In this document: in pieces, positions 29,409 through 37,233 of the stretch
Numbering within the stretch: the first letter of the stretch is position 1
How the letters are laid out: every line of letters begins with the position of its first letter
NCBI GenBank assembly: GCA_937138395.1
Contig: CAKZPB010000085.1
Coordinates: 1 to 64,000, forward strand
Direction of reading: 5' to 3'
Source: an uncultured Pseudomonadota bacterium
Lineage (GTDB): Bacteria; Pseudomonadota; Gammaproteobacteria; Xanthomonadales; Wenzhouxiangellaceae
DNA length: 64,000 nucleotides
Translations under genes and position numbers: made by a program
Notes under the pieces: model-generated
What the model was told of the DNA's origin: nothing
Seen by the model: the letters and a program-made list of their open reading frames with translations, nothing else
Database searches by the model: none

Positions 29409-30866
29409 ATGAACATGACCTCACTCTTTCGTGCATCGCACGCCCTGCTGATTCTACTGCTGAGCCTTGTCCTGCCAGCCGAGGCAAACGATGACCAGCT
29501 CATGCTGGATCAATCCTCGATCCCGGCCGCAGAAGTATTCAGCGGCGATCTGGATCAAATGGTCGAGCGTCGTGTCATCCGGGCCCTGGTGCCCTACAGC
29601 CCGATTTTCTTTTTTGTTGACGACAAAGCTCGCCCAAGAGGCATCAGCCAGGATTACTTGAGCGAATTCGAACAATTCCTCAACCAATCACTGGAAATCG
29701 AGGGCATTCCGGTTTCGATCGCGGCGGTGCCAGTAACCCGGGAGCAACTGATCCCTTGGCTGCTGGAAGGCCGAGGCGACCTGATCGTAGCCGACCTGAC
29801 CATTACGGATGCACGAAGCGAACAGATGCAGTTCAGTGAGCCGATTGCGCGGGGTGTATCGGAACTGCTGATCTCGGGTCCCTCTGCAGCACCGATCGGA
29901 AGATTGGAGGAACTGGCCGGACGCACCGTACTGACCCGTGTAGACAGCAGTTATCTGAACAGCCTGAATGCGCTGAGCACGCGACTGGTCCAGGATGGTC
30001 TACCCGCCATCGATATCGAACTCGCACCAGGCCACTTCGAGGATGGCGATTTGCTCGAAGTGGTTAATGCCGGCATCGCCGCCCATACGGTCATCGATGG
30101 CTATATGGCGCGCTACTGGCAGCAGGCATTGCCCAACATCACCGTTCATGATGAATTGAAGCTGCGGGAAGACAGTGCAATCGGTTGGGCCATTCGGACC
30201 GAAAATCACCAGCTGAAGCGCGTCGTCGACGAATTTGTCCGCAGCCACCGCGACGGCACTCTGTTTGGCAATATCACAATCGACAAATACCTGAAGAATC
30301 CGAAGTGGATTACCAATCCCGATCAGAATGCAGCTCGGGCACGATTCAACGACATGGCGCATCTGTTCCAGACCTTTGCGCAGACCTATGAACTCGACTG
30401 GCTGTTGCTGGTCGCGCAGGGCTATCAGGAATCAACGCTGGATCAGACCAAGCGATCCCACGTCGGCGCCATCGGCGTCATGCAGCTTCTCCAGTCGACA
30501 GCAGACGATATGGATGTCGGCGACATAATGGAACTTGAAAACAATATCCACGCCGGCGTCAAGTATGTTCGCTACGTCATGGACCATTTCTTCAATGACC
30601 CGGCCATCGATCAACGCAACCGGATGCTGCTGGCCCTGGCTTCGTACAATGCAGGACCTGGACGGATTCGTTCACTGCGCCGAAAGGCGGCCGAACGGGG
30701 CCTGGACCCGAATCAATGGTTTGATCATGTTGAAATCGTTGTTGCCCAGGACATTGGTCGTGAAACGGTGAACTACGTGCGCAACATTTTCAAGTACTAC
30801 ATTGCCTATCGCATGATCATGCGCCAACAACAGCAGATTGCCTCGCAGCCCAATCCGGGAAACTGA
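29409..30866 (+). CDS. lytic transglycosylase of the MltF type
   Basis: A 485-residue exported protein. Signal peptide about 1-25 (ALLILLLSLVLPAEA) without a lipobox, so it is likely soluble in the periplasm rather than anchored as MltF is. Residues about 45-295 are a family-3 solute-binding domain (VPYSPIFFFVDDKARPRG, LIVADLTITDARSEQMQF). Residues about 325-465 are the SLT catalytic domain: catalytic Glu E341 in GYQESTLD, then SHVGAIGVMQLLQSTADDM and ALASYNAGPGRI. It would cleave peptidoglycan to 1,6-anhydro-muropeptides, controlled by ligand binding to the first domain. It is 3 bp before the VKOR gene. Confidence 0.9.
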   Translation: MNMTSLFRASHALLILLLSLVLPAEANDDQLMLDQSSIPAAEVFSGDLDQMVERRVIRALVPYSPIFFFVDDKARPRGISQDYLSEFEQFLNQSLEIEGIPVSIAAVPVTREQLIPWLLEGRGDLIVADLTITDARSEQMQFSEPIARGVSELLISGPSAAPIGRLEELAGRTVLTRVDSSYLNSLNALSTRLVQDGLPAIDIELAPGHFEDGDLLEVVNAGIAAHTVIDGYMARYWQQALPNITVHDELKLREDSAIGWAIRTENHQLKRVVDEFVRSHRDGTLFGNITIDKYLKNPKWITNPDQNAARARFNDMAHLFQTFAQTYELDWLLLVAQGYQESTLDQTKRSHVGAIGVMQLLQSTADDMDVGDIMELENNIHAGVKYVRYVMDHFFNDPAIDQRNRMLLALASYNAGPGRIRSLRRKAAERGLDPNQWFDHVEIVVAQDIGRETVNYVRNIFKYYIAYRMIMRQQQQIASQPNPGN

Positions 30867-30869
30867 ATC

Positions 30870-31733
30870 ATGAGCAAACGCAACACATCATCGCGAAGGG
30901 TGGTTGCCCCGAGCAAGCAACGCATCAAGCAAACACCCGACTGGTCAGTTGTTTGTCTTGCATTGCTCGGCATGGCGATCACGGCGTATCTGTCGTTCGG
31001 CAGCCTGTTCAGCAACGCACCGCTGTTCTGCGGCCCGGAATCGGGCTGTGACATCGTGCAGAACAGCCGCTTTGGCACTCTGCTCGGCCTGCCAATCGCC
31101 TTGTGGGGCTTTGGTTTATATGCCTGGATTGCACTCAGTGCCTACAGCATGCCGGCCAAACCGAAACGCTGGAAACGTCTGGCCTGGCTGACCGCCCTGG
31201 GACTTGCGATCAGCCTGTATCTGACCTTGGCCGGGCTGTTGTTTCTGGAGGCATGGTGTGCCTGGTGCCTGGCGTCCCAGCTGACTATGCTCGCGCTGTT
31301 CCTGGCCGTCTGGTTGCGCCCGCCCGAGTCCGGCCCCGGCATGAGCTGGCTGGTCTGGAATCGCAATCTACTGTTGATTTCGCTGTTTTTCTCCGGCGTA
31401 CTGTATGCCTGGCAAGACGGCCTGTTGCAGCCACCCGAAAATCAGGAACTGCGCGCACTCGCGGAGCATCTCGACGCAACGGGCGCGGCTTACTTCGGTG
31501 CCTTCTGGTGTCCGAACTGCCAGGATCAGCGTGAGTTGTTTGGCCGCTCGGCTGATCGTCTGCCCTACGTCGAGTGTTCGCCAAACGGCCGCGGCGGCAT
31601 CGTGGCGTTCGAATGTGTGTCCAATGACATCACCGCGTATCCGACCTGGATCATCGACGGTCGTCGTCATCAACGCGTGCTGTCCATTGATGAGCTGAAG
31701 CGCCTGAGCGGATTCAAGGAGCCGCAAACCTGA
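30870..31733 (+). CDS. VKOR-thioredoxin fusion (disulfide-forming protein)
   Basis: A 287-residue inner-membrane protein. The first ~145 residues are a four-helix VKOR domain: C54 and C60 in CGPESGC form the loop pair, and C130/C133 in EAWCAWCLAS form the CxxC active site. After one more TM helix comes a thioredoxin-like domain (residues about 190-285) with C214/C217 in FWCPNCQD and the cis-Pro in ITAYPTWIIDG. Such bacterial VKORs make disulfides in periplasmic proteins and take the place of DsbB/DsbA. It starts 3 bp after the transglycosylase gene, suggesting one operon. Confidence 0.88.
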   Translation: MSKRNTSSRRVVAPSKQRIKQTPDWSVVCLALLGMAITAYLSFGSLFSNAPLFCGPESGCDIVQNSRFGTLLGLPIALWGFGLYAWIALSAYSMPAKPKRWKRLAWLTALGLAISLYLTLAGLLFLEAWCAWCLASQLTMLALFLAVWLRPPESGPGMSWLVWNRNLLLISLFFSGVLYAWQDGLLQPPENQELRALAEHLDATGAAYFGAFWCPNCQDQRELFGRSADRLPYVECSPNGRGGIVAFECVSNDITAYPTWIIDGRRHQRVLSIDELKRLSGFKEPQT

Positions 31734-31887: not shown

Positions 31888-33840
31888 ATGGTCCGTTGGT
31901 TACCGGCAGTCTTGCTATCATTTGCCTCATCAGTCCTGGCTGTTCAGCCGGACTTCATTGCCACCCCCGAGGTTGTCAGAGGCGACAACTCCGATGGGGT
32001 GTTCAGCGGTCGCGTATTCCACGACCTGGACCGCAATGGACGACCTGGGCAAGATGAACCCGGTGTGGCCGGCGTGCTGGTCTCGAATGGCCGAGGCTGG
32101 ACACGCAGCGATGCCTCCGGACACTATGAAATCGCGGCCATTGCCAACCATGACTTGACCATTGTCCAGCCCACGGGCTGGCGTGTGCCGACCGACCGGC
32201 GCTGGGTGCCGCAGTTTGCCTATATCCATAAACCGGGCGGCACCGGATACCCGTTGCGCTACGGCGGCCTGCCGGATACCGGACCTGTGCCGGCCGCGGT
32301 TCACTTTCCGCTGATTCAGGACCAAGCTGCAGATCAGGATTTCACCTGTGCCGTGATCGGCGACAGCCAGACCTATTCGAATCAGCAGCTGAGCTGGTTG
32401 CGAGACGGCGTCATGACCGATCTACTGCGCGCCGGTCTGGAGCCTGAAGACTGCCTGCTGTACGTCGGCGATGTCTTGGGCGATGACCTTGGCCTGCTCG
32501 ACCGGCTGCTCAAGCTCGGCGCTACGGCCGGTGCGCCACAGTGGCTGGTGCACGGCAACCATGATTTCGATTTTGATGCACGGTCCGATCAGGACTCTGC
32601 CGACAGCTGGCGACGCTTGTATGGGCCAAATTACTATGCCTTCGAGCAGGGCCAGGTGCTGTTTATTGCTTTAGACAACGTGATCTATCCCTGCGGGGCA
32701 GTCGATCGAGATCGGGGCCGTGAATTCTGCGGTGATCCAGAACGACCGCGCTACAACGGCCGCATCAGCGACACGCAGCTCGAATGGCTGCAGGGACTGC
32801 TCGACCGCACCCCCGAGGACCGCTTGATCGTACTTGCACACCACATCCCGTTTGTTTCTTTTGTGGACGCCGGGCGCGCGCAACATCAGACCGATCGGCT
32901 TGATCGAATTCATGCCATGCTCGCTGGACGGCCGGCGCTGTCGCTGTCTGGACACACTCATACAATTGAAAACCATGCGCCAGGACAACAGTTCGAAGGC
33001 TGGGCTGAACACACCCAATCCGGGCCGTTGCCGTTCCGGCACATCATCGCCGGCGCTGCATCGGGCAGCTGGTTTCAAGGTGATTTCAACATCGACGGCA
33101 ATCCAATGGCGCTACAGCGCATGGGTGCACCCCCAGGCTATCTGAAGATCGACTTCGTCGGCACGGATTACAGCGAACGGTATATCGGTGCTCGCATCGA
33201 TCCCCAGCGCGGCCAGTGGATCGGTTTCAACACACCCGCCTTTCGCGAATGGTTTGAAACGCTGTCGCCCGTGCGTTCGCAGAGCCGCGAAGCGCGTGAT
33301 CCAGTCCCGCCGCTGTCGATCAATGATCTGCCCGATACCGGTATTCTGACCGCTGACGATTTACAGCGCGGTGTCTGGCTGACCGCAAACGTCTGGGCTG
33401 GTTCGGCAGAAACGCGGGTTCTGGCTCGATGGTCCGACGGCCGAGTGCAGGTGCTCGAACGCACTCAGCAAGGCACAGGAGAGGCGCCCTTGTCCGGCGC
33501 TCAATGGGCCGACCCATTCGCGGCCGAGCGACAACTATCAGTCAGCCGCTATGCGCTGCAAAGCCGCTCCGGTGATGAACGGGCGCAGGGATTCGAGCTG
33601 TTTCAGGGCAACCGCTATGGCCCCAGCCCACCCGGTCCGCAGGGTACGCTGGCCGAGCGCAACATGCATCTATGGCGAGTCAAATTACCTGAAGACCTCA
33701 CTTCAGGCGTTTATCGAATCCAGGTCACAAGCACTAATCGCCATGGCTACACCTATCTTGACGAAGTGCTGCTGGAAGTACTCGACCAGCGTCCATCGCC
33801 GTATTTTCGATCCGAGCTATGGACGGACGAACAGGACTGA
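31888..33840 (+). CDS. calcineurin-like phosphoesterase with N- and C-terminal beta domains
   Basis: A 650-residue exported protein; signal peptide about 1-18 (LPAVLLSFASSVLA). Residues 30-90 form a small beta domain (GVFSGRVFHDLDRNGRPGQD, ending VLVSNGRGWTRSD), like a SdrD/metallophos N-terminal domain. The central metallo-phosphoesterase core has AVIGDSQTY, YVGDVLGDDLGLLDRLLK, LVHGNHDFDFD and LSGHTHTIEN, the standard metal-ligand set. The C-terminal ~200 residues are another beta-rich domain. It probably hydrolyses phosphoesters in the periplasm or outside the cell. The substrate is unknown. The start follows an AGAAGG site. Confidence 0.85.
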   Translation: MVRWLPAVLLSFASSVLAVQPDFIATPEVVRGDNSDGVFSGRVFHDLDRNGRPGQDEPGVAGVLVSNGRGWTRSDASGHYEIAAIANHDLTIVQPTGWRVPTDRRWVPQFAYIHKPGGTGYPLRYGGLPDTGPVPAAVHFPLIQDQAADQDFTCAVIGDSQTYSNQQLSWLRDGVMTDLLRAGLEPEDCLLYVGDVLGDDLGLLDRLLKLGATAGAPQWLVHGNHDFDFDARSDQDSADSWRRLYGPNYYAFEQGQVLFIALDNVIYPCGAVDRDRGREFCGDPERPRYNGRISDTQLEWLQGLLDRTPEDRLIVLAHHIPFVSFVDAGRAQHQTDRLDRIHAMLAGRPALSLSGHTHTIENHAPGQQFEGWAEHTQSGPLPFRHIIAGAASGSWFQGDFNIDGNPMALQRMGAPPGYLKIDFVGTDYSERYIGARIDPQRGQWIGFNTPAFREWFETLSPVRSQSREARDPVPPLSINDLPDTGILTADDLQRGVWLTANVWAGSAETRVLARWSDGRVQVLERTQQGTGEAPLSGAQWADPFAAERQLSVSRYALQSRSGDERAQGFELFQGNRYGPSPPGPQGTLAERNMHLWRVKLPEDLTSGVYRIQVTSTNRHGYTYLDEVLLEVLDQRPSPYFRSELWTDEQD

Positions 33841-33997: not shown

Positions 33998-36151
33998 ATG
34001 ATGAATCATTCAGAGTGGCCTGGCTTTATGGCGGCAGCAATGCTTGCAGTTCAACTCGTGTTCGTCCCGAATTTGGCCGAAGCCGAGGGTCATCATGCGG
34101 CTGCGACGCTGGATCAGCTGATTCAGGACTTCGAGCGAAGCGAACTGGAGGCTGATCCGATCCGTGCAGGCCTGGCAGGCGATCTGGAGTCTTCGAGTCG
34201 CTGGCCGGATGCTTCGTTCGAAGCGGTCGCGCAGCGGCGCACGCTGGATCGTGACTTGTACAAGCGCCTGCAAAGCATCTCACCTGCCGAACTGCCCGAA
34301 AGCGAGCAGATCAATTATCTGGTGCTCGACCACCTGCTGAGCTCACGCATCACGCTGGCAGCATTCGATCGTGAGCGCATTCCGTTCACCAACGATTCCG
34401 GGTTCTTTGCAACCCCCTTTCAGGTTGCCCGGACCACGCGCATCATGAATCTTGATCAGGCTGAAGCCTGGCTACTGCGCATCGAACGCATCCCGGCCTG
34501 GCTCGATCAGCACATGGCCTGGCTTGAGCGTGGTATCGAGACCGATACCGTGCAGCCTGCATATGTTGTCAAGGCCGTGGTTGATCAGGTCATGCATATC
34601 AATGCAACGCCAAGCCAGAACAGCCCGCTCCTGGCCCCGTTCGAAGGGCTGCCAAAGGCGCTGGAAGCCGAGCACGGCGCAGCGCTCCGTGCACGTGCAG
34701 GCCGAGCCATCGAACAGCGGGTTGGGCCTGCCTTTGCCCGGCTTGAACGATTCTTTGTTGACACCTATCTGGCCGAGCCACGGAACAGCATCGGTATTGC
34801 TGACATCCCAAAAGGGCGGGCGCTGTATCGGGCGCTGGTGCGCTATCACACGACCCTGGATACCAGCCCGGAAGCCATCCATCAGCGCGGCCTGGATGAA
34901 GTCCAGCGGATCCGCGCCGAGATGGAGAAGATCATTGCAGAGACCGGGTTCGAAGGCAATTTCGCGGCATTCGTCGAACACTTGCGGACCGACTCGAAGT
35001 TCTACGCCCGGACCGGGCATGAGCTGTTGATGCACGCGGCCTGGATTGCCAAGCGCGCCGACGACGCGATGCCATCACTGTTCCGCAACCTAGCGCGTTT
35101 GCCGTATGGTGTAAGACCAGTGCCGCCTGAACTGGCCCCGACCTACACGACCGGGCGTTACTGGCCCGGCAATGCCGATCAAGGCATCGCCGGGGCGTTT
35201 ATGGTCAACACCTATGCACTGGATCAGCGCCCGCTGTATGCCTTACCCGCACTGACCCTGCATGAGGGCGTGCCCGGCCATCATCACCAGTTTGCGCTAT
35301 CGTCCGAAATGGACCACGTGCCGCGTTTTCGACGCAACCTGTACCTGACGGCCTTTAACGAAGGCTGGGGTCTGTATGCCGAACGACTGGGTCTGGATAT
35401 GAACATCTACACCACGCCCTACGAACATTTCGGGCGCTTGAGTTATGAAATGTGGCGTGCATGTCGACTGGTCGTGGATACCGGCATTCATTACTTTGGC
35501 TGGACACGTGAACAGGCCGAAGCCTGTCTGCTGGAGAATTCCGCGCTTGCGCCACGCAACGTGACGACCGAAGTTGCGCGCTATATATCCTGGCCCGGCC
35601 AGGCCCTGGCCTACAAGCCAGGTGAACTGCTGATTCGTGAGTTGCGCAGTCAGGCAGAGCAGACGCTCGGAACCGAATTTGACCTTCGCAGTTTTCACGA
35701 TGTGCTACTGTCCGACGGCGCAATTCCGCTGAACGCACTGGAGCAGAAGATGAAGGATTGGATCGCCGATCAGTCCAACCCGCCTGAAAGCACAGCCGCA
35801 AGCAGCATCGAGCTGGCTGGCACGTCCTGGCGATTGAGTATGCTGGCTGACCAGCCCACAGACGCTGCAGAAATCACCATGCACTTCGCCGCAGACGGCC
35901 GTGTCTCGGGGCGCTCGGCCTGCAACCGCTACTTTGGTCAATGGACTTTGGACGATCGGGATCAGCTCGAATTCAGTCACTTGGGCTCCAGCAAGATGGC
36001 TTGTGAACCGGCACTCATGGCACTCGAAGCGCAGTTCCATCAGACGGTCCGCTCCGTTGCAAAACTGAGCATCACAGCCGATGGCATGCTGCAGGCAGCG
36101 CAGCAGGGCCAAACCGTCTGGACCGCCCGGGGAATCGACCACCCTGATTAA
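33998..36151 (+). CDS. DUF885-type metallopeptidase fused to a C-terminal META domain
   Basis: A 717-residue exported protein; signal about residues 1-26 (MAAAMLAVQLVFVPNLAEA). Residues 30-590 are a DUF885 domain, a gluzincin-like zinc peptidase family: HEGVPGHH at H422-H429 binds metal and E455 in FNEGWGLYAERLGL is the expected extra ligand. Residues about 604-717 are a META/HslJ domain: ELAGTSWRLSML, GRVSGRSACNRYFGQWTL, MACEPALMALEAQFH. META domains occur in heat-shock HslJ and in lipoproteins, so this fused form is unusual to me. It could degrade peptides outside the cytoplasm. It converges on tatC. Confidence 0.88.
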   Translation: MMNHSEWPGFMAAAMLAVQLVFVPNLAEAEGHHAAATLDQLIQDFERSELEADPIRAGLAGDLESSSRWPDASFEAVAQRRTLDRDLYKRLQSISPAELPESEQINYLVLDHLLSSRITLAAFDRERIPFTNDSGFFATPFQVARTTRIMNLDQAEAWLLRIERIPAWLDQHMAWLERGIETDTVQPAYVVKAVVDQVMHINATPSQNSPLLAPFEGLPKALEAEHGAALRARAGRAIEQRVGPAFARLERFFVDTYLAEPRNSIGIADIPKGRALYRALVRYHTTLDTSPEAIHQRGLDEVQRIRAEMEKIIAETGFEGNFAAFVEHLRTDSKFYARTGHELLMHAAWIAKRADDAMPSLFRNLARLPYGVRPVPPELAPTYTTGRYWPGNADQGIAGAFMVNTYALDQRPLYALPALTLHEGVPGHHHQFALSSEMDHVPRFRRNLYLTAFNEGWGLYAERLGLDMNIYTTPYEHFGRLSYEMWRACRLVVDTGIHYFGWTREQAEACLLENSALAPRNVTTEVARYISWPGQALAYKPGELLIRELRSQAEQTLGTEFDLRSFHDVLLSDGAIPLNALEQKMKDWIADQSNPPESTAASSIELAGTSWRLSMLADQPTDAAEITMHFAADGRVSGRSACNRYFGQWTLDDRDQLEFSHLGSSKMACEPALMALEAQFHQTVRSVAKLSITADGMLQAAQQGQTVWTARGIDHPD

Positions 36152-36167: not shown

Positions 36168-36926
36168 TCAGGCCTCCTTTTCCAGCTCCTTGTGCGAGCG
36201 GTTGACCAGCAAACGGGAAAACACAATCCCGAGTTCGTACAGCAGCCAGACCGGCAGCGCCAGCAGGGTCTGGGAAATGACATCGGGTGGCGTAATCAGC
36301 ATGGCGATAAAAAACACGCCAACGACGACGTAGCCCCGGGCCTTGGCCAGCAGCTCCGGTGTAACCAACCCGATGGCCACCAGGGCAACGGTGATGACAG
36401 GCACTTCAAACGACAGGCCGAACGCCAGAAACAGAATCAGCACAAAATCCAGGTAGCGGTTGATGTCGGTCATCACGGCAACTCCTTCCGGCGCCATCTT
36501 GGCAATGAAGGTAAAAATGACCGGAAACACAACGAAGTAGGCAAACAGGCAGCCCAGGTAGAACAGCAGCGTGGCGGCCACCAACAGCGGCTTGGCAATC
36601 CGCTTTTCGTGTTTGTACAAGCCCGGCGCGATAAACGCCCAGGACTGATAAATCACGAATGGCATGGCCACCAAAATCGCCAGAATCAGGACCAGCTTGA
36701 ACGGCGCAAATACCGGCGAGGCCACGTCGATCGCGATCATGCTAGCGCCTTCGGGTAATGCCGCAATCAGGGGCTCGGATACGACGGCGTACAGCTGACG
36801 TGCAAAAGGCACCATCGCAATCATGCACACAACGACGGCCAGCACGGCTTTGATCAGGCGGCTTCTCAGCTCCAGCAGATGATCAATCAGCGATAGTTCC
36901 TGATCCGTGTCAGCGCTCGACGACAT
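36168..36926 (-). CDS. tatC: Tat protein translocase subunit TatC
   Basis: About 252 residues from the ATG at 36924-36926 (MSSSADTDQELSLIDHLLEL); an upstream in-frame extension is basic and unlike TatC, and it overlaps tatB in another frame. Six TM helices follow, with the typical LIDHLLELRSRLIKAV N-terminus, FIAPGLYKHEKRIAKPLL and a conserved Glu-containing FLAFGLSFEVPVI. TatC recognises twin-arginine signal peptides in the inner membrane. The start overlaps the tatB end by 17 bp. It is the last gene of tatABC. Confidence 0.93.
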   Translation of the reverse strand: MSSSADTDQELSLIDHLLELRSRLIKAVLAVVVCMIAMVPFARQLYAVVSEPLIAALPEGASMIAIDVASPVFAPFKLVLILAILVAMPFVIYQSWAFIAPGLYKHEKRIAKPLLVAATLLFYLGCLFAYFVVFPVIFTFIAKMAPEGVAVMTDINRYLDFVLILFLAFGLSFEVPVITVALVAIGLVTPELLAKARGYVVVGVFFIAMLITPPDVISQTLLALPVWLLYELGIVFSRLLVNRSHKELEKEA

Positions 36927-37233
36927 CGGAATTGGACTGCGAGGCAGACGTTGGATCTGAAGAAGGTATGGATTCTGTAGGTGAGGATTCAACCTCGGAT
37001 TCGGCCGAGGGCTTATCGCCCGCGTCCGCACTGGGAGATGCCTGCATGATCTTGCGGTTGTGGTCCAGATCCAGCTCGGCCTGCAGCTCCGACTGGATGC
37101 CCTGCCAGGCAGCACGCGCCTGACGTGACCATCTCCCTGCAGTGCGGGCGATCCCCGGCAGCCGCTGTGGGCCAACCACGATCAGTGCGATCACGGCCAG
37201 CAACAACATTTCGGTAAAGCCGATGCCGCTCAT
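36910..37233 (-). CDS. tatB: Tat protein translocase subunit TatB
   Basis: A 107-residue protein: one N-terminal TM helix, SGIGFTEMLLLAVIALIVVG, then the GPQRLPGIARTAGRW amphipathic helix of TatB and an acidic, Ser-rich tail (ESEVESSPTESIPSSD). TatB forms the receptor with TatC. The gene starts 7 bp after tatA and overlaps tatC, so they are cotranscribed. Length is short but within the family range. Confidence 0.92.
   Translation of the reverse strand: MSGIGFTEMLLLAVIALIVVGPQRLPGIARTAGRWSRQARAAWQGIQSELQAELDLDHNRKIMQASPSADAGDKPSAESEVESSPTESIPSSDPTSASQSNSDVVER

Follow-up and report, generated by a model that had tools for sequence, protein, structure and literature searches.

A DUF885-family protein with an in-frame C-terminal META domain in a Wenzhouxiangellaceae genome

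Introduction

Does a predicted metallopeptidase of the DUF885 family continue, in one uninterrupted reading frame, into a META domain, and what might the added domain do for the enzyme? The question is raised by a gene in a stretch of 64,000 nucleotides from contig CAKZPB010000085.1 (assembly GCA_937138395.1), which belongs to an uncultured gammaproteobacterium of the family Wenzhouxiangellaceae. We refer to this whole stretch as the window. Searches of open-licence papers turned up no description of a DUF885-META fusion, and none of the DUF885 papers listed there deals with the function of the family.

Results

One reading frame carries both domains

Positions 33998-36151 of the plus strand form a single open reading frame of 717 codons plus a stop, with no internal stop. 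Pfam matches to both families fall within it, as the initial annotation, which had placed a peptidase-like domain and META in one stop-free frame, led us to expect. The fusion is real in the assembly, rare and lineage-specific, a new pairing of two known families. Its parts are these:

33998..34090, plus strand: probable Sec-type signal peptide, residues ~1-31, with no Cys and therefore no lipobox (judged by eye from the sequence)
34157..35752, plus strand: DUF885 domain (PF05960), residues 54-585, with HEGVPGHH (422-429) and E455 (full-length Pfam match, six-frame search, invariant columns, Foldseek)
35753..35809, plus strand: residues 586-604, comprising the last part of the DUF885 chain and the linker (orthologue matches ending at 591-614; sequence)
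35810..36124, plus strand: META domain (PF03724), residues 605-709, with Cys 642 and Cys 669 (Pfam, six-frame search, AlphaFold2, PDB matches)

The DUF885 match covers profile positions 1-532 of 532 (E 3.4e-156, 522.4 bits against a cut-off of 32.4), and most ten-residue blocks of this part have pLDDT of at least 90 in the full-length model. Foldseek returned 3o0y (E 9.7e-30), 3iuk (E 8.1e-22) and 3u24 (E 1.6e-15). The first of these, a DUF885 lipoprotein from Colwellia psychrerythraea, is the best match in both sequence and structure. Its alignment stops at fusion residue 590, which corresponds to residue 607 of 609 in 3o0y, and the catalytic domain is therefore complete before META starts. 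The two proteins have the DUF885 fold in common, but the 3o0y chain stops where the match stops and has no META domain. The motif HEGVPGHH and E455, singled out by the initial annotation, proved well conserved: across an alignment of 36 rows chosen from the collected loci, frames with stops being omitted, no row departs from H422, E423, P426, G427, H428, H429, Q431, E455, G456 or W457. The motif has the form HExxPGHH, not plain HExxH. The Peptidase_MA clan is named in PMC12572635, in a passage about HExxH; from that clan the DUF885 part may be expected to share zinc-peptidase chemistry, its own motif being HExxPGHH as against HExxH.

The tail scores as META at 79.1 bits against a cut-off of 24 (E 3e-22, profile positions 3-107 of 109). 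The initial annotation had drawn this domain from 604 to 717; the tail is indeed META, but META proper is confined to residues 605-709. Folded alone by AlphaFold2 with 28 alignment rows, the domain reached a pLDDT of 92.8. The full-length model was built with DUF885 rows only, and pLDDT is low at 598-622 and 685-717; these values say little about the linker and META, because the alignment has no rows beyond ~600. The fused domain keeps seven of eight near-invariant META residues (L10, W15, G42, C46, N47, C73 and E81, A2 numbering), and the eighth, T69 of A2, is Ser. Its closest structural matches, 2la7 (Z 14.9, rmsd 2.2, 117 aligned) and HslJ 2kts (Z 13.2, rmsd 3.0, 114 aligned), have the same barrel fold but are stand-alone chains; DUF4847 4zgf (Z 12.7), MxiM 1y9l (Z 10.9) and ToxS 8u2f (Z 10.2) follow. 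Against the HslJ equivalog model NF007766 (NCBIfam) the score was 20.3 bits, far under the cut-off of 168.

Cys occurs in the fusion protein only at 489, 510, 642 and 669. With none before residue 489, the lipobox Cys after the signal peptide that marks a META lipoprotein is absent. Residues 591-604 of the linker are rich in Pro, Ser, Thr and Ala, a composition that suggests flexibility.

A misassembly or base-call error might have joined neighbouring genes, or the tail might be a separate short gene. The assembly is a draft of 142 contigs. Codon 585 is an in-frame ATG preceded at six bases by GGAG, and this leaves room for a separate short META product, which would be cytoplasmic, unexported. 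Measured against six neighbouring genes, the codon fit of DUF885 is -0.36 overall (-0.31 to -0.40 in segments of 120 codons), that of META -0.40 and that of the 120-codon segment straddling the join -0.44; META thus falls at the bottom of the DUF885 range without being clearly foreign. Against an artefact, the join is in frame, falls between the domains and lies within one contig of 75,941 bases, GC does not shift across it (GC3 is 0.666 and 0.686 for the DUF885 and META parts), and the META half lacks any signal peptide or lipobox, features that most of the stand-alone META proteins examined possess (by eye). We regard an artefact as very improbable.

Orthologues end where META would begin

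A search of 43 genomes of the family found an orthologue in 18 besides the window's own (19 places), at 54-64% identity. None of the 18 has META after DUF885, the matches ending at fusion residues 591-614. Only three matches reach residue 600 or beyond, those in G065 (600), G160 (604) and G134 (614), and the latter two each contain one stop. Five of the orthologue-bearing genomes (G051, G065, G104, G139 and G151) do have a META match, in each case on a different contig. A META search of the loci collected by then found the domain only at the locus of the window's own genome.

The neighbouring genes that matter for comparison are as follows:

30870..31733, plus strand: VKOR-family gene (PF07884), encoding 287 aa and ending in a thioredoxin-like region with WCPNC, the latter judged by eye (Pfam, synteny)
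31888..33840, plus strand: calcineurin-like phosphoesterase between the VKOR and fusion genes (Pfam)
36168..37175, minus strand: tatC (PF00902), convergent with the fusion gene (Pfam)

In five of five genus mates (G051, G065, G104, G151 and G152) a VKOR gene lies directly upstream of DUF885. Since the upstream VKOR gene is common to the window and the genus mates, the fusion gene and their DUF885 genes are orthologues occupying one locus; the adjacency may also point to a connection of disulfide formation with the DUF885 enzyme. The intervening phosphoesterase, a three-part protein with Metallophos and MetallophosC above cut-off and MetallophosN below, has no match in the corresponding stretches of the five genus mates. 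The genes 3' of DUF885 differ between window and genus mates within the 4-5 kb compared, tatC not being found over that distance downstream of DUF885 in the latter, and a breakpoint therefore lies near the fusion. Further upstream in the window, 29409-30866 joins a transglycosylase SLT domain to a family 3 solute-binding domain, a layout that we take to be MltF-like.

Judged from these sequences, the simplest account is a gain of META on the branch leading to the window's species. The best-scoring relatives of the fused META within the family genomes are only 35-39% identical, and the window genome holds just one further META, of a different type. In a META tree of 32 rows the fused domain falls in an open, weakly supported group. 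The genus mates G051 and G065 carry a stand-alone META gene adjoining a peptidylprolyl-isomerase-like gene (named by eye), and no close match to that isomerase was found in the window genome (the best is 47% over residues 20-162 of 322). On these comparisons a stand-alone META of the G051/G065 type is no more than one possible source of the fused domain.

These facts bear on the idea that META was recently joined in frame, when the DUF885 stop was lost or the region rearranged, in a near-neutral event, with no particular function as yet. The fusion occurs in one of 43 family genomes, and because it is known from one genome only, such an accident is a serious rival; the nearby breakpoint and the weakly supported tree group likewise speak for it. 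On the other side, the join falls between the two domains, and META has kept seven of its eight near-invariant residues and its predicted fold at 35-39% identity to family relatives. That conservation argues for selection since META originated, an origin that may predate the fusion. On balance we consider a near-neutral accident unlikely, if well worth keeping in view.

The pairing is rare in wider samples

The possibility that the fusion is common was checked in samples of the order, class, phylum and plasmids, which overlap one another, and no second case appeared among the matches listed. The whole protein, used as query against 151 genomes of the order (149 with a match), and residues 520-717, used against 398 genomes of the phylum (147 with a match), each gave no second DUF885-META protein among the matches listed, nor, among these, any other stop-free match past residue 606. 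With the META profile as query, no DUF885-META frame besides the window's was found among the matches listed from 299 genomes of the order (157 with a match) or from 374 of the phylum (138 with a match), and no second one in 312 of the class (50 with a match). Of 72,556 plasmid records, 66 had a match, and the 12 listed out of these 66 include no DUF885-META protein. A pattern scan of genome contigs recovered seven relatives, none extending beyond residue 598. Our own DUF885 and META models, run over the collected loci, placed both domains in one frame solely in the window's genome, and DUF885 was absent from 15 META loci added later and scanned with our own model.

Two candidates were examined and rejected. 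In G082 a match running to residue 700 contains two stops; the frame itself aligns only as far as frame position 601, and has no META by our own model. A match to residue 638 on a Niveispirillum plasmid spans two annotated genes, one for DUF885 and one for a LytTR protein.

META domains in other long proteins

The initial annotation held that META domains usually stand alone or sit in lipoproteins. This agrees with most META proteins that we examined, stand-alone members looking for the most part like lipoproteins (lipobox by eye) and the multi-domain ones having YscW, MliC, NlpE or DUF4377 as partners. For long proteins we took the listed META frames of at least 500 residues, which, being chosen for length, do not represent META proteins fairly; G079, G967, G1004, G1026 and G001 were judged from translation, and the other long frames were scanned with Pfam. 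Seventeen non-enzyme frames have a further Pfam domain (YscW, MliC, NlpE, DUF4377 or PliI), and META comes last in 15 of the 17, the exceptions being L115 and L131. Three long frames (G823, G829 and G438) have no other Pfam match. In L036, L112, L113, L124, L139 and L140 META is terminal in proteins with YscW and the lysozyme-inhibitor domain MliC, and in L136 and L142 NlpE domains take the place of YscW/MliC, again with META terminal. The G117 proteins at L119 2001-3590 (minus strand) and L122 2840-4303 (minus strand) carry a tandem META pair, L119 having an additional match to the lysozyme inhibitor PliI barely above cut-off.

Enzyme fusions among the listed long frames number four, including DUF885-META. 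The others, all recognized by Pfam, are these:

L114 2783-5137, minus strand: Amidohydro_3 (PF07969) with C-terminal META at 681-781, from G007
L061 166-1824, plus strand: beta-lactamase-family protein with C-terminal META at 445-548, from G181
L133 2499-4220, minus strand: beta-lactamase-family protein with C-terminal META at 459-563, from G603

Like the fusion protein, each is a predicted hydrolase with META at its tail. They differ in the enzyme part, which is unrelated to the DUF885 family in the G007 amidohydrolase and belongs to a serine-hydrolase family in G181 and G603. The G181 and G603 proteins give a significant BLASTP alignment to each other over META only (30.6%, E 2e-9), and because the alignment is confined to META the two fusions are probably of separate origin.

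The partners of META, and some of its weaker structural matches, could suggest that it serves as a built-in inhibitor or regulator, the barrel or linker shielding the active-site cleft until itself cut or moved aside. META is found together with MliC, and its structural matches include potempin E (8ehc, Z 9.2; 8ehd, Z 8.3), which we take to be an inhibitor, and U-Omp19 (7mhw, titled a protease inhibitor, Z 5.6), although Z values of 5-8 are common for small folds. The match to the U-Omp19 barrel lends little weight, because, according to the title of PMC9486555, a disordered region of that protein retains full inhibitor activity. The 18 orthologues, moreover, manage without META. We consider built-in inhibition improbable.

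Discussion

The reading we favour, tentatively and at a little short of an even chance, is that an exported, soluble, periplasmic DUF885 enzyme gained a C-terminal META barrel on this species' branch as a docking module. The DUF885 protein, a predicted metallopeptidase, would be exported to the periplasm, its probable location, and remain soluble there; the META beta-barrel would have been added at its C-terminus through a short linker. The barrel would then bind a partner in the envelope, which could be a protein or, as for the structurally related MxiM, a lipid; this binding would hold the soluble peptidase close to the outer membrane or to its substrate. Stand-alone META proteins are mostly lipoprotein-like and the fusion has no lipobox, so META may place the enzyme at the envelope or next to a partner. 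In keeping with this reading, the long META frames elsewhere combine META, mostly in last place, with modules of envelope proteins (YscW, MliC, NlpE), and three further enzymes have it at the tail. PMC3270026 reports, for both Leishmania META1 and HslJ, a hydrophobic cavity resembling that of MxiM, and lipid binding by the cavity of MxiM. The initial annotation had proposed that META binds the substrate, the envelope or an inhibitor; an HslJ-like or MxiM-like barrel, as modelled, would fit such binding and favours no single partner. Docking is compatible with many small barrels and not specific to META.

A partial parallel exists in eukaryotes. Leishmania META2, as described in PMC3270026, has three META domains and a calpain-like domain; it resembles the fusion protein in combining META with a peptidase-like domain in one protein, and differs in being eukaryotic and calpain-like, with META N-terminal.

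On its own, the gene described here adds a single new domain combination, found in a single genome, and not a new kind of system. A broader and more speculative proposal, to which we give rather little credence, is that META is mobile and that unrelated exported hydrolases (the DUF885 peptidase, the amidohydrolase and the two beta-lactamase-like proteins) have independently acquired it at the C-terminus as a module for docking or control. If that were true, one type of barrel would set where enzymes sit, or when they act, in the envelope, and the long-mysterious META domain would have a general role. META fusions to assayable enzymes would offer a handle on the domain, through comparison of the enzyme with and without META.
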